In this document: positions 21,316 through 35,244 of the stretch, piece by piece
How the letters are laid out: every line of letters begins with the position of its first letter
Position numbering within the stretch: the first letter of the stretch is position 1
From: a virus
IMG/VR virus record: IMGVR_UViG_3300030419_000057
Location: 1-60,885 of that record
Strand: one strand, 5' to 3'
DNA: 60,885 nucleotides
Made by a program: the position numbers and the translations under genes
The notes under the pieces: generated by a model
What the model saw: only the letters and a program-made list of their open reading frames with translations
Told to the model about the DNA's origin: nothing
The model's database searches: none

Positions 21316-21364
21316 CATATATCTCTAAGTAGTTACACTACGTTACACTACTAAGAGATATATG
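21316..21364 (-). other. Intergenic hairpin, family member 1
   Basis: An 18-position inverted repeat (21316-21333 with 21347-21364) is fully paired except for one A-A opposition (U-U in the - strand RNA) at 21327/21353. The loop is 13 bases. It begins at the base after the endonuclease stop. A Shine-Dalgarno-like AAGGAG follows the hairpin on the - strand but no gene starts there. It belongs to the dispersed family described in the findings. Confidence 0.85.
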
Positions 21365-21868
21365 TTAGTCTGTTTCAGCCGTGTAGTGCCGACTTTTCTC
21401 ATGTTGTTCTAAAAATTTCAAAGCTCTTCTTACATTAGAAATAGTATCTCCTAGAAACCCTAACCCTGAGTTACATTTCCAACATATGTACCCTCTAAAT
21501 TCTCCTGTATTATGATCGTGATCTAATACAAAAGTAGCATTATATTTTTTCTCTAGTTTCTGGTCTGATACTAAGTCACTATAACTTTTAGTACAGATAG
21601 GACATCTATACGTTTTATCAGGTGAAGGGTGTATGGTTTTAAGATACCTGATTCTTTGTCTATTTATGTCAACACATTTTTTACATATATTTCCTTTTAT
21701 TATTTCTTCATTAGGTAAATAATTTGATCTAGTAGTACCATTTACAAAAGAGTGAAGAGGTTTTTCTATTCCACATTTATGACATACTCTAACTCCCTTA
21801 GAAGTATCTATAGATATTTCATCTTTAAAAAATTCTAATTGTTCTTCTTCTAATGTGTCTCTGCCCAT
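21365..21868 (-). CDS. Endonuclease VII-like recombination nuclease (HNH/His-Me, zinc)
   Basis: This is a 167-residue protein. The C-terminal half has VLDHDHNTGEFRGYICWKCN followed by GLGFLGDTISNVRRAL, the classic endonuclease VII pattern with the His-Me finger (DHDH). Additional CxxC pairs (CHKC, CKKC, CPIC, CWKC) can bind two zinc ions. In T4-like phages such enzymes resolve branched DNA before packaging; closely related proteins also act as homing nucleases. The start overlaps the 3' end of the polymerase gene by 19 bases. Confidence 0.87.
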   Translation of the reverse strand: MGRDTLEEEQLEFFKDEISIDTSKGVRVCHKCGIEKPLHSFVNGTTRSNYLPNEEIIKGNICKKCVDINRQRIRYLKTIHPSPDKTYRCPICTKSYSDLVSDQKLEKKYNATFVLDHDHNTGEFRGYICWKCNSGLGFLGDTISNVRRALKFLEQHEKSRHYTAETD

Positions 21869-23511
21869 GTTACACCTACTTTATATTCATTATCTAAAGG
21901 ACATTTGATATTAAATATTTCTTCAGTCTCTTTCATAGCCTTCTTTGTTATGGTACAAAATTCTTCTATATCTTTTTTATGTACCTCAAACTGATACTCA
22001 TCGTGAATAGACGCAACTAGTTTAACATCAAGATTCTTTGAATGATCCATCATCTGAACTAACCATTGCTTACAGATGACTGCCCCTGCTCCTTGGATTA
22101 AAGTATTCAAAGCACTATGAAAGTTTCTTACATGAAGTTTTCTTCCATCTATACCAGGAATTATCTTATTCTTTTTAGCAGCTACATCTACTCGTGACCG
22201 TAGCTTTTGTAAAGCAGGAACATTCCGTAGGAAATTATCTATTAACTTCTGTCCTTCAGTAGATTTAACACCAGCTACCTTACCAATCTTCTCTGCACCA
22301 GCACCATAAATTAAAGCATAAAGGAATGTTTTGGCTTGATCTCTAGTCTCTAGATTAGCCATCTTTTGATTAGCTGTATGCACATCACCTTCAATAACTT
22401 CTCTGATATAATCTTTATCCCCCATGTAATGAGCCAAGGCTCGTATCTCTAGACCAGAAGCATCTGTACCTACTAGACTATAGTTCTCTGGATCAGGGAC
22501 AGTCCAACAGTCTCTACACTCTTTACCATATGGTGAGTATACGGCTGGTATCTGTGCCATGTTAGGACTATTATGAGCCATGCGTCCTGTTATAGTCTTT
22601 AATGTCATCACTCTACCATGAACTCTACCATAATTATCTACAGCAGCTATCCATTGTTTAATTTGTGATACTCTTTTTTGTAGTAGTAAATAGCGTGAAA
22701 TTAATTTAGCTTCGGGAATGTTTACTGTCTCTAGTATCTCATCACTAACAGCAATACTTCCTTTCTCTGTCTTTAACTTTGGCTTCCATCCTTTCTCCAT
22801 TAGTTTTTCTGCTATCTGTTGACGAGAAGCAGGGTTAAATTTATCTATATGATCTAATAAAGGTTTACCAGTCTTCTTATGAAACCTTTTAGTAACTACT
22901 GTTGGAAATGCTTTCTCTAACTCTCGCTCTAATCCATCACACTCATCTTGAAATTTATTCATTAGTGTCATAGTTCTTTGTTCATTAAGATAAAAACCGT
23001 TATCTTCTTGTTGATTAATTAACTCACGTATCTTATGTTCTAACTTTATAGATTGAGAAGAAAAGCTACTACCTTCACCAACTAAACGCTTTAATAATTT
23101 AAGTGTAACATCTACATCTCTATTACAATACTCTAACATTTGAGGTGTATATACTTTAAAATCCTCTGGTGGATTACCTTTTGGAAATCCTAGTCTCTCA
23201 CCCCATGCTGATAATGAATGTCCTTTATCTCTCATAGGATTAAATAACTGTGATAAGATTAAAGTATCCACAATATTAGACATAGGGATGTTAGCATCAG
23301 TAAGTTTATTAATAACTCTCCCATCAAATGATACTCCATTATGCATATAAAATTTATCTACTTTCTTAGACCACTGAGGAAAGATAGTATAGCACTCATC
23401 TTGTACGAACTCCTTTACTTCATTAGTCTTTACATCTCTTGCTACTATACAATGTATTTTAGTTGCATCAAGAGCATCAGTCTCTATATCAAGTACTATT
23501 CCCTTGCTCAT
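21850..23511 (-). CDS. DNA polymerase, family A (T7-like) with 3'-5' exonuclease
   Basis: This 553-residue protein has an N-terminal exonuclease (VLDIETDAL with Asp8 and Glu10; YCNRDVDVT) and the three palm/finger motifs: motif A GTDASGLEIRALAHYMGD, motif B RDQAKTFLYALIYG (about residues 385-400) and motif C SIHDEYQF. The motif B residue equivalent to E. coli Pol I Phe762 is Tyr, the T7-like state usually linked to fast, lytic replication. It has no 5'-3' exonuclease and is shorter than T7 polymerase. It overlaps the thyX and endonuclease genes. Confidence 0.95.
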   Translation of the reverse strand: MSKGIVLDIETDALDATKIHCIVARDVKTNEVKEFVQDECYTIFPQWSKKVDKFYMHNGVSFDGRVINKLTDANIPMSNIVDTLILSQLFNPMRDKGHSLSAWGERLGFPKGNPPEDFKVYTPQMLEYCNRDVDVTLKLLKRLVGEGSSFSSQSIKLEHKIRELINQQEDNGFYLNEQRTMTLMNKFQDECDGLERELEKAFPTVVTKRFHKKTGKPLLDHIDKFNPASRQQIAEKLMEKGWKPKLKTEKGSIAVSDEILETVNIPEAKLISRYLLLQKRVSQIKQWIAAVDNYGRVHGRVMTLKTITGRMAHNSPNMAQIPAVYSPYGKECRDCWTVPDPENYSLVGTDASGLEIRALAHYMGDKDYIREVIEGDVHTANQKMANLETRDQAKTFLYALIYGAGAEKIGKVAGVKSTEGQKLIDNFLRNVPALQKLRSRVDVAAKKNKIIPGIDGRKLHVRNFHSALNTLIQGAGAVICKQWLVQMMDHSKNLDVKLVASIHDEYQFEVHKKDIEEFCTITKKAMKETEEIFNIKCPLDNEYKVGVTWAETH

Positions 23512-24169
23512 CTAAATCTCCTGTCATTAAACATTCCCACGAGGTAGGGAAGTGTTCCCTAACTAATGACGATATCTCATGGGCTATAAACCTAGTCTCA
23601 AGTTGAGTATCTTTCTTACATCGTAAGTTACATACCCTAGCAAAAGCAGCAAGACTACCACTCCAATACCATTCAGTATACATAGCTTGTGGTAGTACCA
23701 TACGTGCCTGTTCAGGACAGATACCTTTGTTTAACATATTCTCATAACACTGAGTAACATATTCAATTAAAGGTTTCATATCATACTCAATAGAGGATAC
23801 TGGTTTACTACCTTGCTTCTTATTCTCTGCTCTCCCTCTAAATAATATAGGGTCAAAGAACTCTGGCTTGCTGTCCACATACCTACGTGATACCTCATTC
23901 CAGACTAATCCTACCTGATGTTTACCTAATTGTCTAGCAATAAATATTGGAGCCTTGATATGGAACTGTAAGTAACAGTGACCAAAGGGAGTCCAATGAT
24001 TATGTTTAGCTAGATACTTTATAAGATTTTCATCTTCAACTTTTAAATACCCTTCTATTGGCCCTGCATCAGGAACCGCATCCCATTCAGATACTTTATC
24101 AAAAGATACACGAGCAGCATTAACGACAGTTAAATCACTACCCATATGGTCAATCAGTTTTACTTCCAT
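23489..24169 (-). CDS. thyX: Flavin-dependent thymidylate synthase
   Basis: This 226-residue protein contains the ThyX fold signatures: NAARVSF near the N-terminus, NHWTPFGHCYLQFHIKAPIF, and RQLGKHQVGLVWNEVSRRYV, a variant of the ThyX motif, then LPQAMYTEWYWSGSLAAF with catalytic Ser and Arg context. It makes dTMP from dUMP using FAD and methylenetetrahydrofolate, raising the thymidine pool of an AT-rich genome. It overlaps the polymerase gene by 23 bases and the gene upstream by 20. Confidence 0.95.
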   Translation of the reverse strand: MEVKLIDHMGSDLTVVNAARVSFDKVSEWDAVPDAGPIEGYLKVEDENLIKYLAKHNHWTPFGHCYLQFHIKAPIFIARQLGKHQVGLVWNEVSRRYVDSKPEFFDPILFRGRAENKKQGSKPVSSIEYDMKPLIEYVTQCYENMLNKGICPEQARMVLPQAMYTEWYWSGSLAAFARVCNLRCKKDTQLETRFIAHEISSLVREHFPTSWECLMTGDLDEQGNST

Positions 24170-24659
24170 CTTTAACTCCTAAGTCTATAAGTTCAGCTTT
24201 AGATACAGGAACTTTAAAAAAGTATTCACCTTTTCTTACAGCCCTGTTAGGAACCTCAACGACAGGGGAGTTCTGTACGACAGTGCCATGCATCTTCCAT
24301 GCCTTCTTACAGTCTCCCCTAATAATATAGAAATAAAATTCTATATCTTTATTCTTTCCCTTATTCCAGTCATTACCATAGACTTGAGTTAATAATCTAT
24401 TCTTTCTAAAAGGAATGTTTATATCCTTCCATACTGTAGGCCAGTCTCCCTCCCACATATGTTTCATTTCAACTTCATGTTTATAGATTACCCCATCTAA
24501 TATAGATGACAAGTCTACACCATAATCTTCTTTAATCTCTAAAACTTTATGTCCTAGTGACATTAGATACTTGGTAATACAATCCTTCGCTAATGTATCA
24601 GACTTCTTATAAGCAATAGGATCAAACCGTTTACGTTTAGATTTCAAAGGGTATGTCAT
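24150..24659 (-). CDS. Putative PD-(D/E)XK endonuclease-like protein
   Basis: The start at 24659 (MTYPLKSKRKRFD) is chosen because AAGGAG lies 9 bases upstream; two earlier in-frame ATGs overlap that site. The product is 169 residues. EDYGVDLSSILDGV followed by YKHEVEMKHMWEGDWP fits a D...ExK nuclease core like those of restriction-type enzymes. Function unproven; possibly host DNA degradation or DNA processing. It sits between primase-helicase and thyX and overlaps both. Confidence 0.6.
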   Translation of the reverse strand: MTYPLKSKRKRFDPIAYKKSDTLAKDCITKYLMSLGHKVLEIKEDYGVDLSSILDGVIYKHEVEMKHMWEGDWPTVWKDINIPFRKNRLLTQVYGNDWNKGKNKDIEFYFYIIRGDCKKAWKMHGTVVQNSPVVEVPNRAVRKGEYFFKVPVSKAELIDLGVKDGSKTD

Positions 24660-26298
24660 TAATATCATCTCCTTGTTCACGCTCTGGATCAAAAGGGTTA
24701 TCAATAGAAGTCATACGTCCTGTGTCTTTATCATAGTAAAGGTGAGCAGCTACACCCGTATCCCCTGTGTATCTATTCTTTAAGATACGAATAACCGTAG
24801 TGTTAGCTTCAGTCTCATCCTCACTCTGTTGGTTACGCTCCAACGCTATGACCGCATCACTAAGATGTCCAATAGAAGCTGATCCTCTCAAGTGAGAGAG
24901 GGTTACTTCTTTACCTTCTTCAAAGCCCTTGTCACCTCCACGCCTACGTAAGTGAGATACTAACAGTAGCCCTATCCCTGTCTCCTCTACAAGAGAGCGT
25001 AGCTTGGTCATTAGAATATCAATGGACTTACGCTCATCTCCCATATCCTCCTGACCTGATACGAGGATAGACAGGTGATCTAACATGATCCACTTACAGT
25101 CTAATGCTCGTGCCATGTATCGTACCCTGCCTAGTATCTCATCGTTAGAGATAGAACCAAAGTGGTCAAAGGCAAACAGCCTACCAGTACCAAGCGTAGC
25201 TTGTTCCCACTTGTTAAGCTCTTCACGATTGAATTGTTCTCGTACTTCTTTGATATACAACCTAGCGTTAGCTTCCACTGACATAATATTGAACGCAGTA
25301 TTTCTCACGTTCTCTTCTAAAGCCAGAATACCTATGTTATCCTCTGTACTTTTTAAGATATGGTGCATCAGTTCTCTGATGATACTGGATTTACCCATAC
25401 CAGAACCAGAGGTAAAACATACTAGCTCTCCTGTCCTCATGCCATATAGCTTTTCATTCATACCTTCCCAAGGATAAAGACACGTATCACAAAAGTCTTC
25501 TTCATATAACTTTGAACCTAAGTCTCTGAGATTTATAATACCAGCAGGAGTATGTGGTGCAGCAGCCCACCATGCCCTAGTAAAGTCTTCTCGTTTACCT
25601 ACCATAAGGTATTCATTAGCATCTTTGAAGTCTAGCTTTACTATCTTAGCTTTGTTAGGCTCAAACAATTCAGCTACTCTAGCACTGGCCTTACGTCCAG
25701 CCTCATCGTTATCAAAACAAAGTATTACATTATCAAATGAATTAAGATACTCAAGGTTAGCTTTACAATCCCTTACGGCACTAGCTGCACCAGATTTTAT
25801 TGAAACACAGGGATACCTTGAACCAGATAATTCAAAGACAGACATAGCATCTACCTCGCCCTCACATACAGTGATATACTTAGCACTGGAAGGAGGAAAT
25901 AAATTCTGTCCGAATAGTTGACTGGAGGTTAGATCACCTTCAACAAAGAAATTCTTTGGACTTGTCTGACGTACTTTATTAGCTACATGACATTGATCCT
26001 TATCAAAGTAAGGATATATATGTTTGTTTTCTTTAGCTGTAACACCATACTTCTTAGCTGTAGCTAATGAGATGTTACGGCTTTTTAGTTCCATGCTCTC
26101 TCCTTTAGACAGAACATTATTTATTACACCTTTAATAGGTGCTGGTGTTGGTTGGCTCATAGAAAATTCCCCTTCCTCTCTGCCATACTGGTCACATTTA
26201 AAACAATACCAATGCCCATCCTCGTAGAGGACACGAGCCATATCTGCTCCACACTCGTCATGTGGTAGACGATCACGTACAATCTTATTACTATCCAT
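24637..26298 (-). CDS. Primase-helicase (T7 gp4-like)
   Basis: This is a 553-residue bifunctional replication protein. The N-terminal zinc-binding domain has Cys16, Cys32 and Cys35 (YCFKC) with His13 as a possible fourth ligand. A Toprim domain follows (VCEGEVDAMS at 144-153 and CFDNDEAG at 194-201). The helicase domain has Walker A TSGSGMGKSS at 296-305, Walker B-like KWIMLDHLS and LLLVSHLRRRGG. It unwinds the fork and makes primers for the family A polymerase. It has its own promoter at 26322-26350 and a GAGGAG Shine-Dalgarno. Confidence 0.93.
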   Translation of the reverse strand: MDSNKIVRDRLPHDECGADMARVLYEDGHWYCFKCDQYGREEGEFSMSQPTPAPIKGVINNVLSKGESMELKSRNISLATAKKYGVTAKENKHIYPYFDKDQCHVANKVRQTSPKNFFVEGDLTSSQLFGQNLFPPSSAKYITVCEGEVDAMSVFELSGSRYPCVSIKSGAASAVRDCKANLEYLNSFDNVILCFDNDEAGRKASARVAELFEPNKAKIVKLDFKDANEYLMVGKREDFTRAWWAAAPHTPAGIINLRDLGSKLYEEDFCDTCLYPWEGMNEKLYGMRTGELVCFTSGSGMGKSSIIRELMHHILKSTEDNIGILALEENVRNTAFNIMSVEANARLYIKEVREQFNREELNKWEQATLGTGRLFAFDHFGSISNDEILGRVRYMARALDCKWIMLDHLSILVSGQEDMGDERKSIDILMTKLRSLVEETGIGLLLVSHLRRRGGDKGFEEGKEVTLSHLRGSASIGHLSDAVIALERNQQSEDETEANTTVIRILKNRYTGDTGVAAHLYYDKDTGRMTSIDNPFDPEREQGDDINDIPFEI

Positions 26299-26321
26299 AG
26301 TAGCTCCTCAACTCTAGCTGT

Positions 26322-26350
26322 AGGATACATCAATCAGGTTGGAATGTCAA
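26322..26350 (-). promoter_or_regulatory. Sigma-70 promoter for primase-helicase
   Basis: On the - strand: TTGACA (26350-26345), 17-base spacer, TATCCT (26327-26322). It lies directly after the hairpin at 26360-26401 and about 25 bases before the ribosome binding site of the primase-helicase gene. It probably starts the replication operon. Confidence 0.78.
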
Positions 26351-26359
26351 GTGCTAACA

Positions 26360-26401
26360 GTTACTACGTGTTAGTACGTAAGTACTACTAACACTAGTAA
26401 C
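26360..26401 (-). other. Intergenic hairpin, variant family member
   Basis: A 16-bp inverted repeat (26360-26376 with 26386-26401) has one bulged base (26367) and an inner GTAC-GTAA-GTAC mini-hairpin. It starts four bases after the stop of the 61-residue gene and precedes the primase promoter, the same layout as the hairpin at 21316. It lacks the A-A opposition of the other copies. Confidence 0.75.
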
Positions 26402-26404
26402 TAG

Positions 26405-26590
26405 TTACCTACTGTCATATGTTTTCTTAATTATATTCTCTGTAAAATCTAAACTATCTGTCATAATTTCTTCTGTCTCCTGTTTAGCTAAACGTCTAGC
26501 TTCTCTACGAGAATATCCTTCATTTAAATAATCTTGTGTTAAGTTTTTAAATAAAGATTCTCTATCTTTTTCCCATAAATTTTTACTCAT
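26405..26590 (-). CDS. Small helical hypothetical protein
   Basis: This is a 61-residue charged protein, helical throughout, with YSRREARRLAKQETEEIM in the middle. The start overlaps the stop of the gene upstream (ATGA). It is the last gene before the primase promoter and hairpin. No family was recognised. Confidence 0.6.
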   Translation of the reverse strand: MSKNLWEKDRESLFKNLTQDYLNEGYSRREARRLAKQETEEIMTDSLDFTENIIKKTYDSR

Positions 26591-26742
26591 CCTATCGTTC
26601 CCTTGCTTGATAATACTTTAATTCTTTTATATGCTTCTTGTAATTGTCCTTGTAAAGTATAAATATTATCTTCTAATATTTTTACTTTTGCTTTTAACTT
26701 TTCTAACTCTTCCATATTTTTTATCCATTCATAACTAGGCAT
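26587..26742 (-). CDS. 51-residue coiled-coil protein
   Basis: MPSYEWIKNMEELEKLKAKV begins a nearly continuous amphipathic helix with leucine/isoleucine heptads through residue 45. The stop overlaps the next start (ATGA). A GGAGGAG Shine-Dalgarno overlaps the stop region of the hydrolase gene, with somewhat long spacing. Likely a real small gene; the function is unknown. Confidence 0.55.
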   Translation of the reverse strand: MPSYEWIKNMEELEKLKAKVKILEDNIYTLQGQLQEAYKRIKVLSSKGTIG

Positions 26743-26748
26743 TATTTT

Positions 26749-27273
26749 TTAATCTCCTCCATAATAATAGAATAAATGTTTACCTATCTTTGTTATAAAT
26801 TCTAGTTCATATATCCAATATGGACTAACATAAGATGCATGATAGAAAGTAGCACCCTGTATTTCTTCATAGATAACACCATCAATAGCCATACGTGCTA
26901 CATCCTGTGCCGTCTTAAGTGCTTGTTTATCCTGCATAATTTCTGGTTTACCATCACACCAGTACGAAAAGGCACATTTATTTCTTATAGGATTTCCCTC
27001 CCAATATCTTCCATCATGTACAACTTCACATACAGTTGATGGAAATCTACTATCTCTAACTCGTTCTAATATTACATTAGCTACTGCTAATTGTCCAATA
27101 AAACTTTCACTTCTTGCTTCAAAATATACAGCTTCAGTTAAACATTCTTCATCAGTTGGTTGAGCTTCAGCTTTATTTATTAGCGTTAATGTTGCAAAGA
27201 AAATTGCAATAGTAATCATACTAATAAATAATATTTTAAAAGAAGTACTATACTTTATGTGCGACTTATCCAT
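26749..27273 (-). CDS. Cell-wall hydrolase SleB/CwlJ family with N-terminal signal anchor
   Basis: This 174-residue protein has a hydrophobic segment at residues 12-33 that could act as a signal or signal-anchor sequence. It is followed by the Hydrolase_2 (SleB) domain: CLTEAVYFEARSESFIGQ (Glu47/Glu52 region), VANVILERV, CAFSYWCDG and GATFYHASYVSPYW. These enzymes are peptidoglycan transglycosylases. It is in the early/middle arm, far from the M15 endolysin, and could be a SAR-type second lysin or act early on the wall. It overlaps the upstream gene by 19 bases. Confidence 0.83.
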   Translation of the reverse strand: MDKSHIKYSTSFKILFISMITIAIFFATLTLINKAEAQPTDEECLTEAVYFEARSESFIGQLAVANVILERVRDSRFPSTVCEVVHDGRYWEGNPIRNKCAFSYWCDGKPEIMQDKQALKTAQDVARMAIDGVIYEEIQGATFYHASYVSPYWIYELEFITKIGKHLFYYYGGD

Positions 27274-27557
27274 ACTACTCTCCCTTCTTGATCTTGACCA
27301 TAGAAATTATCTATCCAGTCTCCATGCTTGAGGTAGTGCCTCATGTGTTTTATATATCCTTCACATGAGGCACGATTAGCAATAGCTCCTTTTATATTCT
27401 GTCGTTCTTGTTTACGATACTCACCCACTAAGGATTGATTGTGGGTTATCCAATCCATCACTTTCAAGTAGTGGATAGGATGATCCTTTGACATTTTTCT
27501 TATTGATGGGTGTATCCCCTTTAGCGATACGCTCTGCCCTTTCTTCTTGCCACGCAT
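27255..27557 (-). CDS. Hypothetical protein, start uncertain
   Basis: The frame is 100 residues, with in-frame starts at residues 1, 22 (27494) and 34 (27458). The longest version overlaps the gene upstream by 137 bases, so one of the internal starts may be correct, but none has a convincing ribosome binding site. The C-terminus (HYLKHGDWIDNFYGQDQ, then GRVVWISRT) is aromatic and looks constrained. No family was recognised. Confidence 0.5.
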   Translation of the reverse strand: MRGKKKGQSVSLKGIHPSIRKMSKDHPIHYLKVMDWITHNQSLVGEYRKQERQNIKGAIANRASCEGYIKHMRHYLKHGDWIDNFYGQDQEGRVVWISRT

Positions 27558-27789: not shown

Positions 27790-27790
27790 C

Positions 27791-29311: not shown

Positions 29312-29459
29312 AATACCATTCCTCTTGGTTATTTAAAAAATCATTGATATCTTTAATATCAATATCGTCAACGTCTTCTGCACCACTAACTGTCATTATA
29401 TAATCATAGACATTTAGTGGCAAGTCTTTTGTATTTCTATAGTTGAAAGGGTAACTCAT
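29295..29459 (-). CDS. 54-residue acidic hypothetical protein
   Basis: This begins MSYPFNYRNTKDLPLNVYDY; the C-terminal half is very acidic (EDVDDIDIKDIND). It lies two bases after the stop of the upstream gene and overlaps the DUF932 start by 17 bases. The small acidic form could suit a DNA mimic or inhibitor, but there is no direct evidence. Confidence 0.55.
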   Translation of the reverse strand: MSYPFNYRNTKDLPLNVYDYIMTVSGAEDVDDIDIKDINDFLNNQEEWYYDNDV

Positions 29460-29460
29460 A

Positions 29461-29682
29461 TTATTCCTCAACATATTGGTTTATCATAGGTTCTTCTTCT
29501 GCCATTTGTGCTACCATTACAGTACAGTCTGTAATAACAGACATAGCTAAACATATTTCAGACCATTCATCAGCATACTCCATGCTGTCTTCATCTTGTC
29601 CTATCTTGTTTCCTAAAGAATCTTCAGCATAAGAATGTAATATATTCCATATGTGATCTAATGCTTGTTCAGTAGTCATCAT
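29461..29682 (-). CDS. Small acidic hypothetical protein (73 aa)
   Basis: This acidic helical protein includes ALDHIWNILHSYAEDSLG and ends EEEPMINQYVEE. Its start overlaps the stop of the gene upstream (ATGA-type). No family was recognised. Confidence 0.58.
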   Translation of the reverse strand: MMTTEQALDHIWNILHSYAEDSLGNKIGQDEDSMEYADEWSEICLAMSVITDCTVMVAQMAEEEPMINQYVEE

Positions 29683-29879
29683 CTTACTACTCCTACAGTT
29701 TCTAATTTTTGATTACGTACTCCAAAGACATCTATCTTTTGAGCATCACCATCAGGTGATGTAACTTCTACACTTACTACTGTATAGAAATCTCCATCTT
29801 TATCATTCATTTCCATATGATCTACTCTAACTTCAATCTTTGAAGCCTCGTGAAAATATATATTTGTTTTACCAGCCAT
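29679..29879 (-). CDS. Small beta-rich hypothetical protein (66 aa)
   Basis: KIEVRVDHMEMNDKDGDFYT followed by VVSVEVTSPDGDAQKIDVFG suggests alternating beta strands. An AAGGAA precedes the ATG; it is two bases from the upstream gene. The function is unknown. Confidence 0.58.
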   Translation of the reverse strand: MAGKTNIYFHEASKIEVRVDHMEMNDKDGDFYTVVSVEVTSPDGDAQKIDVFGVRNQKLETVGVVR

Positions 29880-29881
29880 AA

Positions 29882-30103
29882 TTAATTCCTTCTCTTTTTA
29901 AGATAATCAGATATAGCACAATGCACATCTATTTCTAGTTCATCTTCTCGTAACCATTCCTCTGCACGATTCTGATACAGAGCATGAGCGATAGCTTGCT
30001 CAATAAATTCTTCTATGTTATTATCTATATAATCATAGATCGTACTAACAGCTTCATCATACATATCTTCCAGTTGAGATTGGACTGGTGATGGTAACGA
30101 CAT
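29882..30103 (-). CDS. Small acidic hypothetical protein (73 aa)
   Basis: The N-terminal 60 residues are acidic and helical (EDMYDEAVSTIYDYIDNNIE), ending in a basic tip (YLKKRRN). It is the first gene after the hairpin at 30121-30164, with AAGGAGA 5 bases ahead of the ATG. The function is unknown. Confidence 0.58.
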   Translation of the reverse strand: MSLPSPVQSQLEDMYDEAVSTIYDYIDNNIEEFIEQAIAHALYQNRAEEWLREDELEIDVHCAISDYLKKRRN

Positions 30104-30120
30104 ATCATTCTCCTTATCTT

Positions 30121-30164
30121 ATATCTCTAAGGTATTTCACTACGTTCAATACCGTAAGAGATAT
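30121..30164 (-). other. Hairpin family member upstream of Shine-Dalgarno
   Basis: Arms 30121-30136 and 30148-30164 pair except for an A-A opposition (30129/30156) and one bulged G (30154). The hairpin would lie at the very 5' end of the transcript from the promoter at 30178-30206, about 6 bases upstream of the ribosome binding site of the gene at 30103. It is almost the same sequence as the copy at 34918-34961. Confidence 0.85.
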
Positions 30165-30177
30165 ATAGGTTTACCAA

Positions 30178-30206
30178 ACAATACTCCCACATAGTAATAA
30201 TGTAAA
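30178..30206 (-). promoter_or_regulatory. Sigma-70 promoter of the small-gene cluster
   Basis: On the - strand: TTTACA (30206-30201), 17-base spacer, TATTGT (30183-30178). The predicted start falls just ahead of the hairpin at 30164-30121. A perfect 18-base A/T palindrome (30218-30235) lies upstream and may end the preceding transcript. Confidence 0.6.
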
Positions 30207-30252
30207 GAGTAAACTAAACAATAATATATTATTGTACATTACTAACCCTTTT

Positions 30253-30483
30253 TTATAACATCTCCCCATCTACTAGGATGGGACTGTCTGTTTCAATCCA
30301 TACGTGAGCACCACAAGACAAAGGTTTATCAGGTCTATAGACTACTCGTGCTTTACCAGAAAACTCTACGGTATTACCGTATCTATTTTCTTTGTAAGTT
30401 TTACAAGTCAAGACAGGATCACTCACGTTATTCTTACGATTAGCTTTGATAACGTGTTGATTTACATGGATAATTCTTTTCAT
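30253..30483 (-). CDS. Small hypothetical protein (76 aa)
   Basis: This basic beta-rich protein contains MKRIIHVNQHVIKANRKNN and ends WIETDSPILVDGEML. The start is one base after the TGA of the upstream gene (30485). It is followed by about 150 bases holding a palindrome, a promoter and a hairpin. No family was recognised. Confidence 0.6.
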   Translation of the reverse strand: MKRIIHVNQHVIKANRKNNVSDPVLTCKTYKENRYGNTVEFSGKARVVYRPDKPLSCGAHVWIETDSPILVDGEML

Positions 30484-30484
30484 A

Positions 30485-30646
30485 TCATACCTCTATGTCT
30501 ATCTTATGTTTAGGTTTCCTAGTATAGGAACCCCTACCTCTTTTAGGTTTTTCTGCGTCAGCTTTTCTTTGCTTGGCATGAACTACAAAAGGATTTCTTT
30601 TGTACATCATTCTGTTAGATGTACTACTTGGTGCTGTTACTTTCAT
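30485..30646 (-). CDS. 53-residue basic hypothetical protein
   Basis: This begins MKVTAPSSTSNRMMYKRNPF; the second half is Lys/Arg-rich (KPKRGRGSYTRKPKHK). GGAGGG 6 bases before the ATG supports the start, which overlaps the upstream gene by 23 bases. The charge suggests nucleic-acid binding. Confidence 0.62.
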   Translation of the reverse strand: MKVTAPSSTSNRMMYKRNPFVVHAKQRKADAEKPKRGRGSYTRKPKHKIDIEV

Positions 30647-30848
30647 GTCTATCCCTCCAGTAATCCTCCATTACTGTAGTATATCTTTCTGGATTATAGA
30701 TAAAGATAAATCTTTCATCTCTGTCTAATGCCCAAATAGGATAAGGTAATGGAGGTTTCATCCACCTATCTTCTACGTCTATCATTGTTTTAAGTTCAAG
30801 GTCTGTTAAGTAAACTTTTTTAAGTTTAGTATTCTTATCTACAAACAT
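30624..30848 (-). CDS. Small hypothetical protein (74 aa)
   Basis: The start at 30848 (MFVDKNTKLKKVYLTDLELK) is chosen because it overlaps the upstream TAA (TAATG); a longer frame starting at 30869 lies inside the previous gene. Aromatic-rich C-terminus (RFIFIYNPERYTTVMEDYW). The function is unknown. Confidence 0.6.
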   Translation of the reverse strand: MFVDKNTKLKKVYLTDLELKTMIDVEDRWMKPPLPYPIWALDRDERFIFIYNPERYTTVMEDYWRDRHESNSTK

Positions 30849-31075
30849 TATGGTTTCTCCAATACACAACTAACTGTATAGGTTCCATCTTTGTTCTTTT
30901 GTTTAAAGACTATGTAAGGTTTATACCCCTCTACTTGGGCAGCATAGACTTTAGCTTTTGTCTGTTTAACCATTCCTACTTGGTTACATTCATGTTTACC
31001 TACATATTTCCAGTCGTTATCCTTAACTTGATAAGAAGTTAAGATAACAATAACAGCTAATACAAATCCAATCAT
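30848..31075 (-). CDS. Small membrane-anchored or secreted protein (75 aa)
   Basis: The N-terminus (MIGFVLAVIVILTSYQV) is a membrane anchor or signal sequence; the rest is a basic, beta-rich domain with two cysteines (C30 and C71) that could form a disulfide outside the cytoplasm. It may act at the envelope in early infection, for example in exclusion, but no family was recognised. Confidence 0.62.
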   Translation of the reverse strand: MIGFVLAVIVILTSYQVKDNDWKYVGKHECNQVGMVKQTKAKVYAAQVEGYKPYIVFKQKNKDGTYTVSCVLEKP

Positions 31076-31077
31076 TT

Positions 31078-31368
31078 TTATTCTCCTTTTGTGGTAATAT
31101 CAAGAAATAATTCTTCTTGTCCAGTGCAATCTTCTTGTAAAAAACCATTATCTAAACGTTTAATTGGGTAAGCTGTAGCTCTAACAGCTACTACATTTTC
31201 TTTAGACCAATCTAATTCTATGTTAATAGACTGTTTATGATCTTTTGTATCAACCCATATATCCCCTTCAAGTATCTCACTGGATACCTTACCATCATCT
31301 ACTGCTTCTTTAATTTCTCTTAGTAATCCTACGATTACAGCTTCCAACAGTTTTTCTCTGTGTTTCAT
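31078..31368 (-). CDS. Hypothetical protein (96 aa)
   Basis: An N-terminal helix (MKHREKLLEAVIVGLLREIK) precedes a beta-rich region with INIELDWSKENVVAVRATAY. An AAGGAG precedes the ATG. It is two bases upstream of the membrane-anchored gene. No family was recognised. Confidence 0.6.
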   Translation of the reverse strand: MKHREKLLEAVIVGLLREIKEAVDDGKVSSEILEGDIWVDTKDHKQSINIELDWSKENVVAVRATAYPIKRLDNGFLQEDCTGQEELFLDITTKGE

Positions 31369-31378
31369 TTCATTCTCC

Positions 31379-31990
31379 TTAATATTTCTTGACTTTTTCT
31401 ACAATCGTATCCGTAGTGCTATGATTATAACATAGTAAACAGTCTTTGCACTTTTGTCCAGTACAATTTTGTTGATCTACATGCTCATGCTCCAAGACAT
31501 TATTAAATGTCTTATCAAAGTATAGTGGTGGAGTAGCCATGATGCTACTAATAGTAGGGTTGCTATAGATTACAATCAAGTTCTTTGGCTTTTCAACATA
31601 GTCAAAAAGTCTTTTAATATAATCTTTACGCTTTGTCCACAAAGCAAAGTTACAATGCGGATTATGCTTAACGATAGCTACAAGGTTAGCTAAATGTTGC
31701 ATATTAATTAGCTCACCATGAGCATCAAACCTAAAGAAAGCATCCAGTATTACTGGCAATTCTTCTTTGCTCAAAGTCTTGGAACTTAGAAGATCACTGT
31801 TACGCTGCAAAGCAGCAGCCATATTCTTTCTATATCCTTTAAGCATGGTATGGCTGTAACAATGCTTGCAAATTGTTTCCTTCTTTGCTTTGTTCATCTT
31901 GATGCAAAAAGGATTAGTCAAAGTATTAGTGCTAATAGCTTTAAAACCGTCCAGCTTACCAGTCATTTTACTAATGTGAACATTAGTCAT
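31379..31990 (-). CDS. Cysteine-rich phage protein (gp37/gp68-like or radical-SAM-like, tentative)
   Basis: This 203-residue protein has ETICKHCYSHTMLKG near residues 37-51 and a second cluster near the C-terminus (NCTGQKCKDCLLCYNH). FRFDAHGELINMQHLANLV and FALWTKRKDYIKRLFDY resemble the family of phage proteins once called gp37/gp68 that share features with radical SAM barrels. The Cx3Cx2C radical-SAM signature itself is not clear. The start overlaps the stop of the paralogue upstream (TAATG). The function is unknown. Confidence 0.55.
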   Translation of the reverse strand: MTNVHISKMTGKLDGFKAISTNTLTNPFCIKMNKAKKETICKHCYSHTMLKGYRKNMAAALQRNSDLLSSKTLSKEELPVILDAFFRFDAHGELINMQHLANLVAIVKHNPHCNFALWTKRKDYIKRLFDYVEKPKNLIVIYSNPTISSIMATPPLYFDKTFNNVLEHEHVDQQNCTGQKCKDCLLCYNHSTTDTIVEKVKKY

Positions 31991-32223
31991 TATATAAACT
32001 CCACTTTAAAATCTGCATCACCTTTACGGTGAATCCAACGTGTCCATTTAGTATCAACAGACTGTATTAAAATCATATCTTCTCCCAGAAACTTATAAGT
32101 TTCATTCATTAGATGATCTTCTGCATACAGTGGGCCAGATACTCCATCCCATAATTCTCCATGAGAATTAATACGTCTTTTACCATACTCAGTAAGCCCT
32201 GTCAAACGTACCATGTTAGCCAT
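31990..32223 (-). CDS. Small protein, paralogue of the 32338 gene (77 aa)
   Basis: MANMVRLTGLTEYGKRRINS and the ending DTKWTRWIHRKGDADFKVEF align with the 68-residue protein at 32338-32544: both have V-x-LTG-x-T-x2-GK-x-R, then W-x2-RW and D-x-DF-x-VE. The pair seems to come from a local duplication. It is preceded by AAGGAG and by the hairpin at 32241-32302. The function is unknown. Confidence 0.65.
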   Translation of the reverse strand: MANMVRLTGLTEYGKRRINSHGELWDGVSGPLYAEDHLMNETYKFLGEDMILIQSVDTKWTRWIHRKGDADFKVEFI

Positions 32224-32240
32224 ATTAAAACTCCTTATAA

Positions 32241-32302
32241 ATATCTCTAGAAACTCTAAGTAGTATCATAAATGCTACTACTAAGAGTTTCATAAGAGAT
32301 AT
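32241..32302 (-). other. Nested hairpin, family member
   Basis: The inner 16-position stem (32250-32265 with 32276-32291) has one A-A opposition (32258/32283). An outer 8-bp stem (32241-32248 with 32295-32302) extends it. It sits immediately before the Shine-Dalgarno of the gene at 32223 and immediately after the gene remnant at 32304. Confidence 0.85.
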
Positions 32303-32303
32303 A

Positions 32304-32348
32304 TTACTTCTCCGAACCAAACGTGTTGATCCATTCTTCAGGTGTTAC
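32304..32348 (-). pseudogene. Remnant of duplicated 66-aa gene C-terminus
   Basis: On the - strand this reads VTPEEWINTFGSEK-stop, differing by one residue from the end of the intact 66-residue protein at 32546-32746 (VTPQEWINTFGSEK). No start or ribosome binding site belongs to it; it lies in another frame over the tail of the 32338 gene. It is the leftover of a tandem duplication of the two-gene cassette. Confidence 0.75.
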
Positions 32349-32544
32349 TTTTATTATTAATCTCCACTTCAAAGTCTCTATCAAATAGAGGATCAACCCA
32401 ACGTGCATCCCAAGTTAGGGTTGACCTAACAAATAATTTTTGGGGTTGTAACTCAGAAGCATGATCTATTACTTCCCACTTGTTTCCATTCTCTTTCACT
32501 CTATTCTTACCGTGATTAGTTTTACCTGTTAGTGTAACAAACAT
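32338..32544 (-). CDS. Small protein, paralogue of the 31990 gene (68 aa)
   Basis: The ATG at 32544 (MFVTLTGKTNHGKNRVKENG) is preferred: GGAG lies 7 bases upstream, overlapping the end of the previous gene. A longer frame from 32592 has no such site. It shares V-x-LTG-x-T-x2-GK-x-R and the C-terminal W-D-x-RW...DFEVE pattern with the 77-residue neighbour. The function is unknown. Confidence 0.62.
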   Translation of the reverse strand: MFVTLTGKTNHGKNRVKENGNKWEVIDHASELQPQKLFVRSTLTWDARWVDPLFDRDFEVEINNKSNT

Positions 32545-32545
32545 T

Positions 32546-32746
32546 TTATTTCTCCGATCCAAAAGTATTAATCCATTCTTGAGGTGTAACACCTGTCTTT
32601 AAAAATTCTCTGTCATTAGCAGAGACATTAGGCATAGCATCTTGAATAAGAGTACCACTTTCCCAATCGTCAATCTGTGATTGAGTAACAGGAATATCCA
32701 TTGTATTCCACTCGCCACTAAACATACTTTTCTTTGTAATAAGCAT
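32546..32746 (-). CDS. Small hypothetical protein (66 aa)
   Basis: MLITKKSMFSGEWNTMDIPV opens the protein and VTPQEWINTFGSEK closes it. The form (short, acidic, with 'QIDDWESGTLIQDAMPNVS') resembles small phage proteins of unknown function. AAAGGAT precedes the ATG. A decayed copy of its C-terminus lies 200 bases downstream at 32304-32348. Confidence 0.6.
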   Translation of the reverse strand: MLITKKSMFSGEWNTMDIPVTQSQIDDWESGTLIQDAMPNVSANDREFLKTGVTPQEWINTFGSEK

Positions 32747-32779
32747 AGCTTTTATCCTTTGACAAAGTTAAATTGGTTA

Positions 32780-32950
32780 AGGGGTACACTTCTAAGGCCT
32801 TATCTACAGATAAGGTAAATCTTACATTTCATCGTGACCCCTCTTACGGCTACCAGTACCGACACGTAACAGTGTTAGTCTTTTGTTTGTGAGTGCTACC
32901 TCACTTCTCATCATCGGAGGTTAGTCTCCGACTAGTCCCTGCTACAGGAC
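32780..32950 (-). ncRNA. Candidate structured RNA region downstream of the tRNA-like gene
   Basis: Within 171 bases there are at least six short inverted repeats: 32935-32950, 32914-32931 (6 bp perfect), 32889-32904, 32862-32875, 32847-32861, and a three-tier element at 32780-32842 (AGGGGT/ACCCCT closing TAAG/CTTA and a perfect 7-bp stem 32798-32815). Three loops carry the same GTAGC on the - strand. One 30-codon reading frame (32822-32914) overlaps part of it. A function as a leader RNA or RNA gene is inferred only from structure. Confidence 0.4.
32822..32914 (-). CDS. Possible 30-residue basic peptide
   Basis: The frame begins with ATGATG at 32914 and encodes a Lys/Arg-rich peptide (MMRSEVALTNKRLTLLRVG...). 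A GGAG lies 11 bases upstream but is paired inside the 32914-32931 hairpin. It may be a regulated leader peptide or chance; the overlap with several hairpins makes it doubtful. Confidence 0.22.
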   Translation of the reverse strand: MMRSEVALTNKRLTLLRVGTGSRKRGHDEM

Positions 32951-32966
32951 ACGTTCAAGAAAAAGG

Positions 32967-33053
32967 TGAGAGGGCAGGGAATTGAACCCTGCGTTAGCCT
33001 ACCCTAATAGACCTACAGTGTTTTAGGGACACTGTAAACCAGCCATGCCTCTC
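32967..33053 (-). tRNA. tRNA-like gene, CUA (amber) anticodon, no D-arm
   Basis: Read on the - strand: acceptor GAGAGGC/CCCTCTC (6 of 7 pairs, mismatch at 7-66), discriminator A followed by CCT; T-arm CAGGG-TTCAATT-CCCTG (perfect); anticodon stem AGTGT/ACACT with loop CCCTAAA, giving anticodon CTA at 34-36 with A36-A37-A38; long variable arm with a 5-bp stem (GTCTA/TAGGC), so class II, Ser/Leu-like. Only 13 bases separate the acceptor and anticodon stems, too few for a D-stem, and position 33 is C, not U. Either a degenerate serine-type suppressor tRNA or a tRNA mimic. Confidence 0.6.
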
Positions 33054-33058
33054 GTAAA

Positions 33059-33107
33059 TCTTCTTATGTGAAGCAGATACCCCGTTGATATCTGCCCCAT
33101 AAAAAGA
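33059..33107 (-). ncRNA. Two-tier RNA motif, copy 1
   Basis: On the - strand: 10-bp outer helix (33107-33098 with 33068-33059, one G-U), internal loop GGG facing CTTCA, inner helix CAGATA/TATCTG, 9-base loop. It starts at the base after the TAG of the 55-residue gene. The same architecture and internal loop recur at 33824-33875 with different helices. Confidence 0.6.
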
Positions 33108-33275
33108 CTATGCAATAGTCACAAGACCTTGCTTGTCTGTTAGACGGCTCATGCTATAGAACGGCATGAACAAGTATAGAGAACGCTTTCCAAAATGAAT
33201 CTGGAAAGATTTAGAACCACGACCAAAACCGTAACGGGTTTTCTTTGAACGCTTCCGATAAATATATTTAACCAT
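33108..33275 (-). CDS. 55-residue basic protein
   Basis: MVKYIYRKRSKKTRYGFGRG begins a strongly basic, aromatic-rich protein that ends ...DKQGLVTIA at a TAG. AAGGAGG lies 11 bases ahead of the ATG and the hairpin at 33304-33343 just before that. The frame stays open past the TAG for a further 37 codons through the two-tier RNA and into the tRNA-like gene, so amber readthrough would give a 93-residue form. G+C-richer codons than its neighbours. Confidence 0.62.
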   Translation of the reverse strand: MVKYIYRKRSKKTRYGFGRGSKSFQIHFGKRSLYLFMPFYSMSRLTDKQGLVTIA

Positions 33276-33303
33276 GAGCTATCCAGCCCTCCTTATATAA
33301 GAA

Positions 33304-33343
33304 ACTCTAAGTGGTGTTCGTAAGAACTCACACCACTAAGAGT
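33304..33343 (-). other. Hairpin family member with tetraloop
   Basis: Arms 33304-33316 and 33331-33343 pair except for A-A at 33309/33338. The apex is GTTC-GTAA-GAAC on the + strand. It lies between the TAG of the 28-codon frame and the Shine-Dalgarno of the 55-residue gene. Confidence 0.85.
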
Positions 33344-33345
33344 AT

Positions 33346-33432
33346 CTATATTAACAACAAGGTTGTAAAACAACCTACGATTAACAGGATCATCTTGAGA
33401 TCACTGTAAAACTTTTCGTCATCTTGATACAT
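33346..33432 (-). CDS. Possible 28-residue membrane micropeptide
   Basis: MYQDDEKFYSDLK is followed by a hydrophobic helix (MILLIVGCFTTLLLI) and a TAG directly ahead of the hairpin at 33343. AAAGG lies 9 bases upstream of the ATG. An acidic head plus one membrane helix is a plausible small-protein design, but length alone gives weak support. Confidence 0.42.
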   Translation of the reverse strand: MYQDDEKFYSDLKMILLIVGCFTTLLLI

Positions 33433-33823
33433 AGCCTTATGCCTTTGCCAAGATCAAAGAATAGATGCCGCCTTTAATTCTTTGCAGTCAGGTCTGCCGT
33501 GCCCTTCGGGAAGCAACGGTCTCTGTCTTCCCTGCACCTCTCACTATGCTTCACCATAGACAAAGTAGGGAGGATACTCTGTCGCTTTTTACGGTGTTAC
33601 AGTTACAACAATATCATTACTCCGTAATGAGTAACACATCAAGAAATAAATAAATCAAAGAGCAGTTTCTGTACGACTTACTCAGGTCGTCTTGACATTC
33701 TACCCACTATATTAGGTCAAGACTAATATAGTTTGTTTTGGACAGTTTTTCATGTTACCATTATCCAGCATAACTTCTGTTGACAGGCGTGGTAAGCCCC
33801 GAATCTTATTCAGAGTCAAGAAC
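33433..33823 (-). other. 390-base gap with RNA structure and only tiny frames
   Basis: No convincing gene was found. Present are a 27-codon frame without ribosome binding site (33474-33557), a GGGAAG/CTTCCC hairpin region around 33498-33535, a perfect 6-bp hairpin with a 3-base loop (CATTAC-GGA-GTAATG, 33616-33630) and the overlapping stems at 33689-33732. A 62-codon frame on the + strand (33465-33653) has no supporting signals. Confidence 0.4.
33689..33732 (-). ncRNA. Pseudoknot-like or mutually exclusive hairpins
   Basis: A perfect 10-bp stem (33706-33715 with 33723-33732) has a 7-base loop (33716-33722) that is itself complementary to 33690-33696; with 33723 the second stem is 8 bp (GTCTTGAC/GTCAAGAC). 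The order of arms is that of an H-type pseudoknot; alternatively the stems are alternatives of a switch. Confidence 0.5.
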
Positions 33824-33875
33824 TATGTCCTTGTGTGAAGCAGACAGCCTAAACTGTCTACCCCACAAAGACATA
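33824..33875 (-). ncRNA. Two-tier RNA motif, copy 2
   Basis: On the - strand: 12-bp outer helix (33875-33864 with 33835-33824, one U-G), internal loop GGG facing CTTCA, 7-bp inner helix TAGACAG/CTGTCTG (one U-G), loop TTTAGG. The wobble pairs are good only in - strand RNA (they are mismatches on the + strand), which argues for - strand transcription. It begins 4 bases after the stop of the 71-residue gene. Confidence 0.62.
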
Positions 33876-33879
33876 AGTC

Positions 33880-34095
33880 TTAGGCGGCAGTGGCTTCATC
33901 ACGACCAGCAACGAAAGACGTTGCCATCGTATCAGGCATAGCCTCTGCATTCTTGATGACCTTCCAACTACCGTTGGCATGGACAACCCGAACAGGACGG
34001 CCAGCAGCTTCGGCTTTCTTAGCCGTATCACCTTTGCTTTGGTGTGCAGTCCACTTGCCAGTTTTAACGTCAAACGATTGAAATTTAACAGCCAT
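33880..34095 (-). CDS. Small basic protein (71 aa), G+C-rich codons
   Basis: MAVKFQSFDVKTGKWTAHQS, then DTAKKAEAAGRPVRVVHANG, ending DEATAA. AAGGAGG lies 6 bases ahead of the ATG and the hairpin at 34121-34158 just before. Codons are clearly more G+C-rich than most of the genome, suggesting strong expression or a separate origin. A longer frame on the same strand (33858-34139) is an out-of-frame shadow. The function is unknown. Confidence 0.68.
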   Translation of the reverse strand: MAVKFQSFDVKTGKWTAHQSKGDTAKKAEAAGRPVRVVHANGSWKVIKNAEAMPDTMATSFVAGRDEATAA

Positions 34096-34120
34096 AATCG
34101 GCCTCCTTTGTTATAAGATA

Positions 34121-34158
34121 GTCTAAGTGATGTTCGCAAGAACTCACATCACTAAGAC
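34121..34158 (-). other. Hairpin family member with tetraloop
   Basis: Arms 34121-34133 and 34146-34158 pair except A-A at 34125/34154. The apex is GTTC-GCAA-GAAC on the + strand. It lies just before the Shine-Dalgarno of the gene at 34095 and just after the TAG of a 33-codon frame. Confidence 0.85.
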
Positions 34159-34161
34159 AAT

Positions 34162-34263
34162 CTATATGGTTTGGAAAAACGTCATTAGTCCAGCGTATGC
34201 CATGCTGAATAGCATAGGCCAGACTATGACAAACTTTGCAAAGATACAAAGATCAGAGATCAT
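34162..34263 (-). CDS. Possible 33-residue membrane micropeptide
   Basis: MISDLCIFAKFVIVWPMLFS followed by MAYAGLMTFFQTI is hydrophobic along its length. It overlaps the end of the 54-residue gene upstream and stops with TAG at the hairpin, the same arrangement as the 28-codon frame at 33346. No clear ribosome binding site, so translation would depend on coupling. Confidence 0.38.
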   Translation of the reverse strand: MISDLCIFAKFVIVWPMLFSMAYAGLMTFFQTI

Positions 34264-34417
34264 ATGCATAGACAAATTCTATAGCTGAATCAAAAGATTC
34301 AAGCCAATGACCGTGAAGGCCATCCCATACATCAACAGATGTATCAGTTACAGATACTTGGTAAGACCAAGTACCATACTTCATGTCTAAAGCGTTTTGT
34401 AAATCAAATTCAGTCAT
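34253..34417 (-). CDS. 54-residue hypothetical protein
   Basis: MTEFDLQNALDMKYGTWSYQ, then VWDGLHGHWLESFDSAIEFV. Acidic, with several aromatic residues. The start overlaps the upstream TAA (TAATG) and AAAGGAGC lies 7 bases before. The function is unknown. Confidence 0.62.
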   Translation of the reverse strand: MTEFDLQNALDMKYGTWSYQVSVTDTSVDVWDGLHGHWLESFDSAIEFVYAYDL

Positions 34418-34581
34418 TAGACTGCTCCTTTGTCTATGTTAGCTTGCAATCTATCTGCAAGAAGTTTGAACTGTTCTTCCTTTTGGAAGAAACCACACAT
34501 CGTTAAATGATCCTGCAAAGAATTAGCAGGATGATTCTGTAATTCAACAAGGTTGAATTTGTCAAGCATTGTTTTCAGCAT
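34417..34581 (-). CDS. 54-residue hypothetical protein
   Basis: The ATG at 34581 (MLKTMLDKFNLVELQNHPAN) is preferred, with AAAGGA 5 bases upstream. A 71-residue frame starting at 34632 would begin inside the hairpin at 34602-34646 and is rejected. Helical, with LLADRLQANIDKGAV at the end. The function is unknown. Confidence 0.6.
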   Translation of the reverse strand: MLKTMLDKFNLVELQNHPANSLQDHLTMCGFFQKEEQFKLLADRLQANIDKGAV

Positions 34582-34601
34582 GGCATCCTTTGCTATGTAA
34601 A

Positions 34602-34646
34602 GGTTACTAAGTGTAGTTCGTAAGAACTTCACTACACTAAGTAACC
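34602..34646 (-). other. Hairpin family member with tetraloop
   Basis: Arms 34602-34617 and 34631-34646 pair over 16 positions except A-A at 34609/34639. The apex is GTTC-GTAA-GAAC on the + strand. It lies between two genes, shortly after the TAA of the 80-residue gene and just before the ribosome binding site of the next. Confidence 0.87.
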
Positions 34647-34660
34647 CTAAGTGTCAAGTT

Positions 34661-34903
34661 TTAAATGTCTTTGCCATATTCTGATATGGCATTGTCCAAC
34701 AACTCAGTAAGTTTATGCTGAAGCATATCACGATTAACTTGCTTACCGTAGGTAAACCGACCAATCTTAATAACTTCAAGCAAAGCCTCTTGAACTTCTT
34801 CAAGATAGTGCTCATAGTTTTCACAATGGCAAGCTTCCAGCTTGGTCATTTCATACCCAGCTTTAGCTGTAACTTTCATACCAGAACCAATCCAGCAATC
34901 CAT
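34661..34903 (-). CDS. Small hypothetical protein (80 aa)
   Basis: MDCWIGSGMKVTAKAGYEMT, then LEACHCENYEHYLEEVQEAL. Cys/His residues (C3, and CHC near residue 25) might bind metal. The C-terminal half is helical and acidic. AAGGAGA precedes the ATG directly after the hairpin at 34918-34961. The function is unknown. Confidence 0.62.
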   Translation of the reverse strand: MDCWIGSGMKVTAKAGYEMTKLEACHCENYEHYLEEVQEALLEVIKIGRFTYGKQVNRDMLQHKLTELLDNAISEYGKDI

Positions 34904-34917
34904 ATCAATCTCCTTAA

Positions 34918-34961
34918 ATATCTCTAAGGTATTTCATTTCATTCAATACCGTAAGAGATAT
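34918..34961 (-). other. Hairpin family member upstream of Shine-Dalgarno
   Basis: Arms 34918-34933 and 34945-34961 pair except A-A at 34926/34953 and a bulged G at 34951. It is a near copy of the hairpin at 30121-30164; only the loop differs clearly. It stands immediately before the ribosome binding site of the gene at 34903. Confidence 0.85.
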
Positions 34962-35072
34962 ATAGGTTTCATCACAACATCTCATCATCAACCTTGTTGA
35001 TGCACTGTCATCTCATCAAATCCGTTGCCGAAAGGCTCTGTCTTGATCTATGACTTTTGTCAAAGATGTCAA

Positions 35073-35156
35073 CTACTTAGTAGGACTAAGTAGGTCTGGT
35101 GACTGGCTGAAAGTGTTGCCACTACAGCCAAGCTCTATGAGCTTACCAGACTTCAT
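35073..35156 (-). CDS. Possible 27-residue leader peptide
   Basis: MKSGKLIELGCSGNTFSQSP followed by DLLSPTK and TAG. GGAG lies 8 bases before the ATG and the hairpin at 35183-35244 before that, matching the hairpin-RBS-gene pattern seen elsewhere. It would be the first translated frame of the leftward transcript. Weak evidence because of its length. The 110 bases between it and the next hairpin hold nothing else recognisable. Confidence 0.35.
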   Translation of the reverse strand: MKSGKLIELGCSGNTFSQSPDLLSPTK

Positions 35157-35182
35157 CAGCCTAACTCCAAAGAATCTCTCTG

Positions 35183-35244
35183 TATCTCAAGAGACTCTAA
35201 CTTACTTCCTAAGAAGTCAGTAAGTAAGAGTCTCTAAAGAGATA
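35183..35244 (-). other. Long nested hairpin at the start of the early arm
   Basis: Arms 35190-35206 and 35219-35235 pair over 17 positions except A-A at 35199/35226. An outer TATCTC/GAGATA stem (35183-35188 with 35239-35244) extends it. It is the first family member on the leftward transcript. Confidence 0.85.

Follow-up and report, generated by a model that had tools for sequence, protein, structure and literature searches.

The window, that is, the whole stretch of DNA analysed (60,885 bp), is the record of an uncultured phage. Positions 1-248 recur at 60638-60885 (93% identity across 248 bp), and the record is therefore probably that of a whole, circularly mapped genome bearing an end repeat. 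TerL, portal and virion genes lie on the plus strand, and a T7-like replication module, which includes an exonuclease and a ribonucleotide reductase, lies on the minus strand. By TerL, the closest named phages were the Pelagibacter phages HTVC023P and HTVC027P and phage DSL-LC04, at only about 39-42%, and no DNA match was found between the window and named phages. The lineage is narrow and known only from metagenomes, and the majority of the relatives are metagenome fragments. Several further genes of the window were recorded. A 760-aa protein without a PHROG match (12700-14982, minus strand), carrying Pfam MptE-like and methyltransferase domains, is conserved in relatives. A small basic DUF6321 protein (11226-11513, plus strand) is 85-97% identical even in otherwise much diverged relatives, and its gene is missing in the relative G002. 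An iron-sulphur assembly protein (11910-12299, minus strand) and part of a Na/phosphate cotransporter (16442-16900, minus strand) are possible host-derived metabolic genes.

At least eight inverted repeats, and a variant at 26360, had originally been predicted between genes of the leftward arm. The eight named and the variant were all located, and their limits were refined. The hairpins, with tips and internal loops written as leftward mRNA, and neighbouring replication genes are as follows.

20750-21223, minus strand, ssb
21316-21364, minus strand, hairpin 8, U·U mismatch, between the stop codon of the endonuclease VII-like gene, which it follows directly, and the ssb promoter, tip GUA-AC-GUA-GU-GUA
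21850-23511, minus strand, family A DNA polymerase
24637-26298, minus strand, primase-helicase
26349-26394, minus strand, variant hairpin, preceded by a stop codon and closely followed by the helicase promoter
30120-30165, minus strand, hairpin 7, 3x2 internal loop UAC/UU, precedes AAGGAG and the 29882-30103 gene, tip GA-AC-GUA-GU-GA
32250-32291, minus strand, hairpin 6, U·U mismatch, precedes AAGGAG and the 31990-32223 gene, atypical GC/GA tip, additional outer helix extending to about 32233-32308
33300-33347, minus strand, hairpin 5, U·U mismatch, precedes AAGGAGG and the 33108-33275 gene, tip GA-GU-UCUU-AC-GA
34116-34163, minus strand, hairpin 4, U·U mismatch, precedes AAAGGAGG and the 33880-34095 gene, tip GA-GU-UCUU-GC-GA
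34602-34646, minus strand, hairpin 3, U·U mismatch, precedes AAAGGA and a small gene ending at 34417, tip GAA-GU-UCUU-AC-GA
34912-34966, minus strand, hairpin 2, 3x2 internal loop UAC/UU, precedes the 34661-34903 gene, tip GA-AU-GAA-AU-GA
35190-35235 (with extension 35185-35240), minus strand, hairpin 1, U·U mismatch, first in the leftward operon, tip GA-CU-UCUU-AG-GA

In agreement with the original prediction, six copies (30120, 32250, 33300, 34116, 34602 and 34912) stand directly before a Shine-Dalgarno sequence, 35190 does so more loosely, and two (21316 and the variant 26349) directly follow a stop codon. These last two precede TTGACA-17-TATNCT promoters, not ribosome-binding sites. A stem scan requiring pairing alone found eight strong hairpins in the window, six of which are family members, against a mean of 0.2 and a maximum of 1 in 20 dinucleotide shuffles of the window; the copies at 30120 and 34912 were detected once bulges were allowed. 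The structural (virion) arm yielded no family hairpin with either the stem scan or the covariance model, as had been noted before. The model matched hairpin 1 strongly (E 1.2e-8) and hairpin 6 weakly (E 0.005). Its match to the variant 26349-26394 was borderline (E 0.026; E 3e-4 for the copy in G001). The variant has neither GA tip nor U·U, is conserved in G001 and is absent in G002 and G006, and its membership of the family is uncertain. Predicted folding energies of the hairpins range from -13 to -25 kcal/mol, and for all nine, the variant included, the predicted energy is lower as minus- than as plus-strand RNA, by 0.1-3.8 kcal/mol. Across 1.56 Mb of window and relatives, the word CTAAG/CTAAG gave 19 long mismatched hairpins; other words of the same shape that contain a G or C gave 0-6, and only all-A/T words gave 10-21. 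GA-tipped long hairpins numbered 4-6 per hairpin-bearing genome, with essentially none in shuffles.

Both arms of the stems were found to change together across related phages. Ten distinct copies were aligned (A2). Both sides have changed in 9 of the 19 pairs, and 96.8% of cells are paired; the covariation score of the alignment was reached in 0 of 500 shuffles, which ignore relatedness. Because the copies are recognised by their pairing, the count was repeated at sites matched by the neighbouring gene. It gave 11 compensatory double changes and 1 break, together with 2 one-sided changes that keep pairing and 2 repairs; these alignments are small and were placed by hand, and as to relatedness the count is safer than the shuffle test. 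Compensatory pairs also distinguish hairpin 2 from its orthologue in G001. A further alignment (A3) had too few variable pairs and was weakly informative. A lack of supported covariation across related phages had been named in advance as the result that would count against the family; the comparison was run, and covariation was supported. Such changes in matched pairs indicate that the folded RNA rather than the sequence is conserved, and the fold is almost certainly under selection.

As leftward mRNA, the usual copy consists of an outer stem, a small internal loop, an inner stem of 5-14 bp and then a tandem G·A/A·G tip. The tip runs G-A, two to three base pairs, three to four loop bases, the complementary pairs and again G-A. 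GA facing GA is an established layout of tandem sheared G·A pairs in RNA, and such pairs are predicted here. The GTTC-GNAA-GAAC tips described earlier at three copies were confirmed and read GA-GU-UCUU-AC-GA (or GAA-GU-...) on the mRNA strand, and further tips, GA-GUA-UCU-UAC-GA and GA-AC-UUUA-GU-GA, were found. Since tips vary with pairing kept (GA-GU-UCUU-AC-GA, GA-AC-GUA-GU-GA and others), the inner tip pairs also change together. Two tips in the window deviate, 21316 with GUA/GUA and 32250 with GC/GA. An inner/outer stem-length anticorrelation of -0.57 is at least partly a product of the score threshold and was not counted as evidence.

The mismatch proved less constant. Every member had been said to keep one A-A opposition; a clean 1x1 mismatch is present in six copies, but 30120 and 34912 carry a 3x2 loop (UAC/UU). 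In the window clade the internal loop is usually U·U (A-A on the plus strand) or UAC/UU, and relatives have A·C, A·A, A·G, 3x2 or larger loops on the sense strand. These other mismatches and larger loops rule out a fixed A-A mismatch as the definition of the family. Judged from the sequences, the tandem G·A tip on the leftward mRNA strand is a more constant feature than the U·U mismatch. At the ssb site, L154, L155 and L017 keep U·U and the adjoining A-U pair is now G-C, and in L161, L163, L014 and L016 the stem is entirely different and carries U·U and a GA tip. At the first-hairpin site, U·U is found in G001 and L074; in L077 and L078 the U·U position is paired and an A·C mismatch has opened one step further in. 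Another matched site has U·U in L078 and A·A one step away in L077. Some mid-stem irregularity is present in every GA-tipped copy listed. The mismatch thus swaps identity and shifts by one base yet persists at matched sites, and selection appears to act on an irregularity near mid-stem. The original prediction therefore stands as to an RNA fold conserved across phages and not as to the identity of the mismatch.

Each of the 50 collected GA-tipped sequences is on the sense strand of leftward transcription; the independent copies are fewer than 50, because some are overlapping or near-identical versions. A Shine-Dalgarno sequence and start codon lie within 70 nt in 35 of the 50, most at 8-33 nt, and several more miss this count through the spacing rule alone. 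The leftward arm presumably carries early/replication transcripts, "early" being read from position and gene content, and copies are concentrated in its promoter-proximal part. Copies were present in the relatives G001, G003 and G010 and in about 20 shorter contigs, including the same hairpin 1 in L073, a related one in G003 and the orthologue of hairpin 7 at 23225-23274 in G001. The window-clade covariance model also found copies, on the same strand and at E 6e-6 to 4e-2, in contigs with about 72% TerL identity (L102, L109, L114, L119, L126, L135, L136, L141, L142 and L146), and matched L014, L161 and L163 at E 2.5e-5; its plus-strand matches were mirror images of the same hairpins. No hairpins were found in G002 (TerL 97% identical), G004, G005, G007, G008, G009, G011 or G013. 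The hairpins are dispensable, since so near a relative as G002 has none. Outside the lineage, IMG/VR pattern scans gave no convincing new carriers, and there were no convincing copies in HTVC023P, DSL-LC04 (first 31 kb) or HTVC027P (first 28 kb). A search of bacterial genomes for the GUUCUUACGAAC type returned ten matches, unrelated or chance-like. A Desulfovibrionaceae MAG holds two identical hairpin-like CCTTAG...GTTCTTACGAAC...CTTAGG sequences (L278 337-372 and L280 5306-5341), which may resemble the phage hairpins by chance.

Among 15 relatives, the ssb-site hairpin is present, replaced or absent. Where present, it stands as a discrete block, bounded by the pol stop codon on one side and a conserved GAAAGGAG on the other; G002, L157 and L159 lack it. 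In the window, pol and the hairpin are separated by an endonuclease VII-like gene (21365-21868, minus strand); this gene is absent at the ssb site in G001 and G002, is present without the hairpin in G006/L160, and looks like a recently inserted mobile gene. In G003, a hairpin matching that at 35190 precedes a homologue of the 33880 gene. This combination and the differences at the ssb site indicate that hairpins and genes reassort, the hairpins being gained or lost as discrete units independently of the following gene. Two further features lie in or near the hairpin cluster. A tRNA-like gene (32968-33064, minus strand; G001 21401-21492), whose CTA anticodon reads UAG and whose variable arm is long, is situated mid-cluster and is missing in G002 and the other relatives scanned; TAG is the stop codon of 3 of the 48 window genes of at least 100 aa, the DNA polymerase among them. 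The stretch 33440-33860 (minus strand) has several short G+C-rich hairpins and no convincing gene, is partly conserved in G001 and is a possible further RNA. A protein search with the 34661-34903 product gave no match.

The hairpins were compared with known systems. Like the T7 early RNase III sites (R0.3, R0.5, R1, R1.1 and R1.3), they are irregular sense-strand hairpins between early genes, lie close before ribosome-binding sites and carry an internal loop or mismatch in the stem. The internal loop of the T7 sites is thought to confine cleavage to one strand (PMC6121014, PMC8708148). R1.1 drives mRNA maturation and protection, and forcing full pairing there turns single-strand into double-strand cleavage (PMC8708148). 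Unlike the window family, T7 1-9000 has no tandem-GA tip (0 descriptor matches), and covariance model R1 found no match there. The likeness is one of arrangement, and RNase III cleavage of the window-family hairpins is what we infer. The extended start-associated sequences (ESAS) of Cluster K mycobacteriophages are dispersed imperfect inverted repeats, with 17-bp arms of shared consensus beside SAS (GGGATAGGAGCCC); Pope et al. found that ESAS arm changes do not support RNA pairing and proposed DNA-protein sites (PMC3203893). The window hairpins resemble ESAS in standing just before the Shine-Dalgarno of non-structural genes and in being absent at some sites, and two TM4 ESAS copies can fold with a single C·A mismatch. 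In contrast to ESAS, the window-family arms differ between copies and the stems covary (11 compensatory changes, 1 break). No SAS-like sequence was found before window genes, and covariance model R1 had no match in TM4. Chromosomal repeats of the NEMIS/ERIC type are dispersed hairpins carried into mRNAs, some of them reported RNase III targets, and occur as near-identical mobile copies in bacterial chromosomes. Going by that general description, the phage hairpins differ in that their stems vary between copies and are strand-specific. Rfam 15 gave 0 matches to the window at the gathering threshold, with sub-threshold miRNA-like matches only (E up to 1). We class the hairpins as a new RNA family within a kind whose function is known, the intercistronic mRNA hairpins of phages.

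For their role, the explanation we favour, at about an even chance, is intercistronic mRNA processing and end protection through a host enzyme, RNase III first; RNase III processing was also the leading idea of the original prediction. A host double-strand-specific RNase would cut the irregular helix within polycistronic mRNA, and the maintained mismatch or internal loop would restrict cleavage to a single strand. A stable hairpin would then form the end of the upstream message, and the downstream one would begin near its own ribosome-binding site. An irregularity that is obligatory, its identity being irrelevant, matches the prediction of such a single-strand-cut model. The covariation, sense-strand placement in 50 of 50, Shine-Dalgarno proximity, promoter-proximal clustering and absence from the virion arm also speak for processing. 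Against it stand the variable distance from tip to irregularity (inner stem 5-14 bp), a tandem-GA tip that RNase III does not explain, the lack of hairpins in G002, the differing sequence and tip of the T7 sites, and the two copies that precede promoters. A host enzyme is favoured because no phage protein co-occurs with the hairpins: no phage gene was shared by hairpin-bearing genomes and missing from hairpin-less ones, which speaks against a phage-encoded partner. A 66-aa ORF (35254-35454) common to hairpin-bearing genomes overlaps the leftward promoter region and is probably not a gene.

The same hairpins might remain uncut and act as 5'-end or intercistronic stabilisers and translation insulators, blocking nucleases and stopping upstream RNA from pairing with the Shine-Dalgarno. 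Hairpin ends only a few nt before the Shine-Dalgarno, folding at -13 to -25 kcal/mol and the lack of a partner protein fit this role, which we nevertheless consider somewhat unlikely: a plain stem would serve better, and an irregularity found in every GA-tipped copy and re-created after loss is left unexplained. A dedicated RNA-binding protein, of the host or an unrecognised one of the phage, could recognise the GA tip and the irregularity and regulate translation or antitermination. The tip with its covarying inner pairs does resemble a recognition feature, and unrelated small genes are tagged in multiple copies; that no phage gene tracks the hairpins among genomes, and that internal-loop type and spacing vary widely, makes such a site doubtful. 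A long stem, an obligatory mid-stem irregularity and a tandem-GA mini-hairpin tip could together form a shape-coded RNA signal for a dedicated factor other than RNase III, an exchangeable tag with which the phage lineage confers common processing or translation behaviour on any early gene; we regard this as unlikely.

Readings at the level of DNA or transcription fared worse. The clean presence or absence of the block between the pol stop and GAAAGGAG, the endonuclease VII-like gene inserted beside the hairpin in the window and the hairpin/gene reassortment in G003 would suit mobile miniature inverted repeats or cassette-swapping recombination joints (cruciforms). Such elements are very improbable given the single strand relative to transcription (50 of 50), stems that are entirely different between copies and covary, the tight spacing to ribosome-binding sites and the better folding as sense RNA; exchange may still be a by-product. 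Intrinsic terminators or attenuators are barely credible, even though the stems are stable and intergenic and two copies directly precede promoters: they lack a U tract, with 1-5 U and usually the Shine-Dalgarno in the 12 nt that follow each window hairpin, and a terminator scan did not list the hairpins. N4-type hairpin promoters were rejected, as the stems vary and none of the proteins scanned was recognised as an RNA polymerase.

These results add to a phage lineage known from metagenomes alone a multi-copy mRNA structure that covariation supports directly and that is described in no library. The matched natural variants, with U·U, A·C, A·A and 3x2 loops at the same sites, could reveal the role of the mismatch in processing hairpins. 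The hairpins also represent a regulatory tag whose gain, loss and exchange do not depend on the small early genes downstream.
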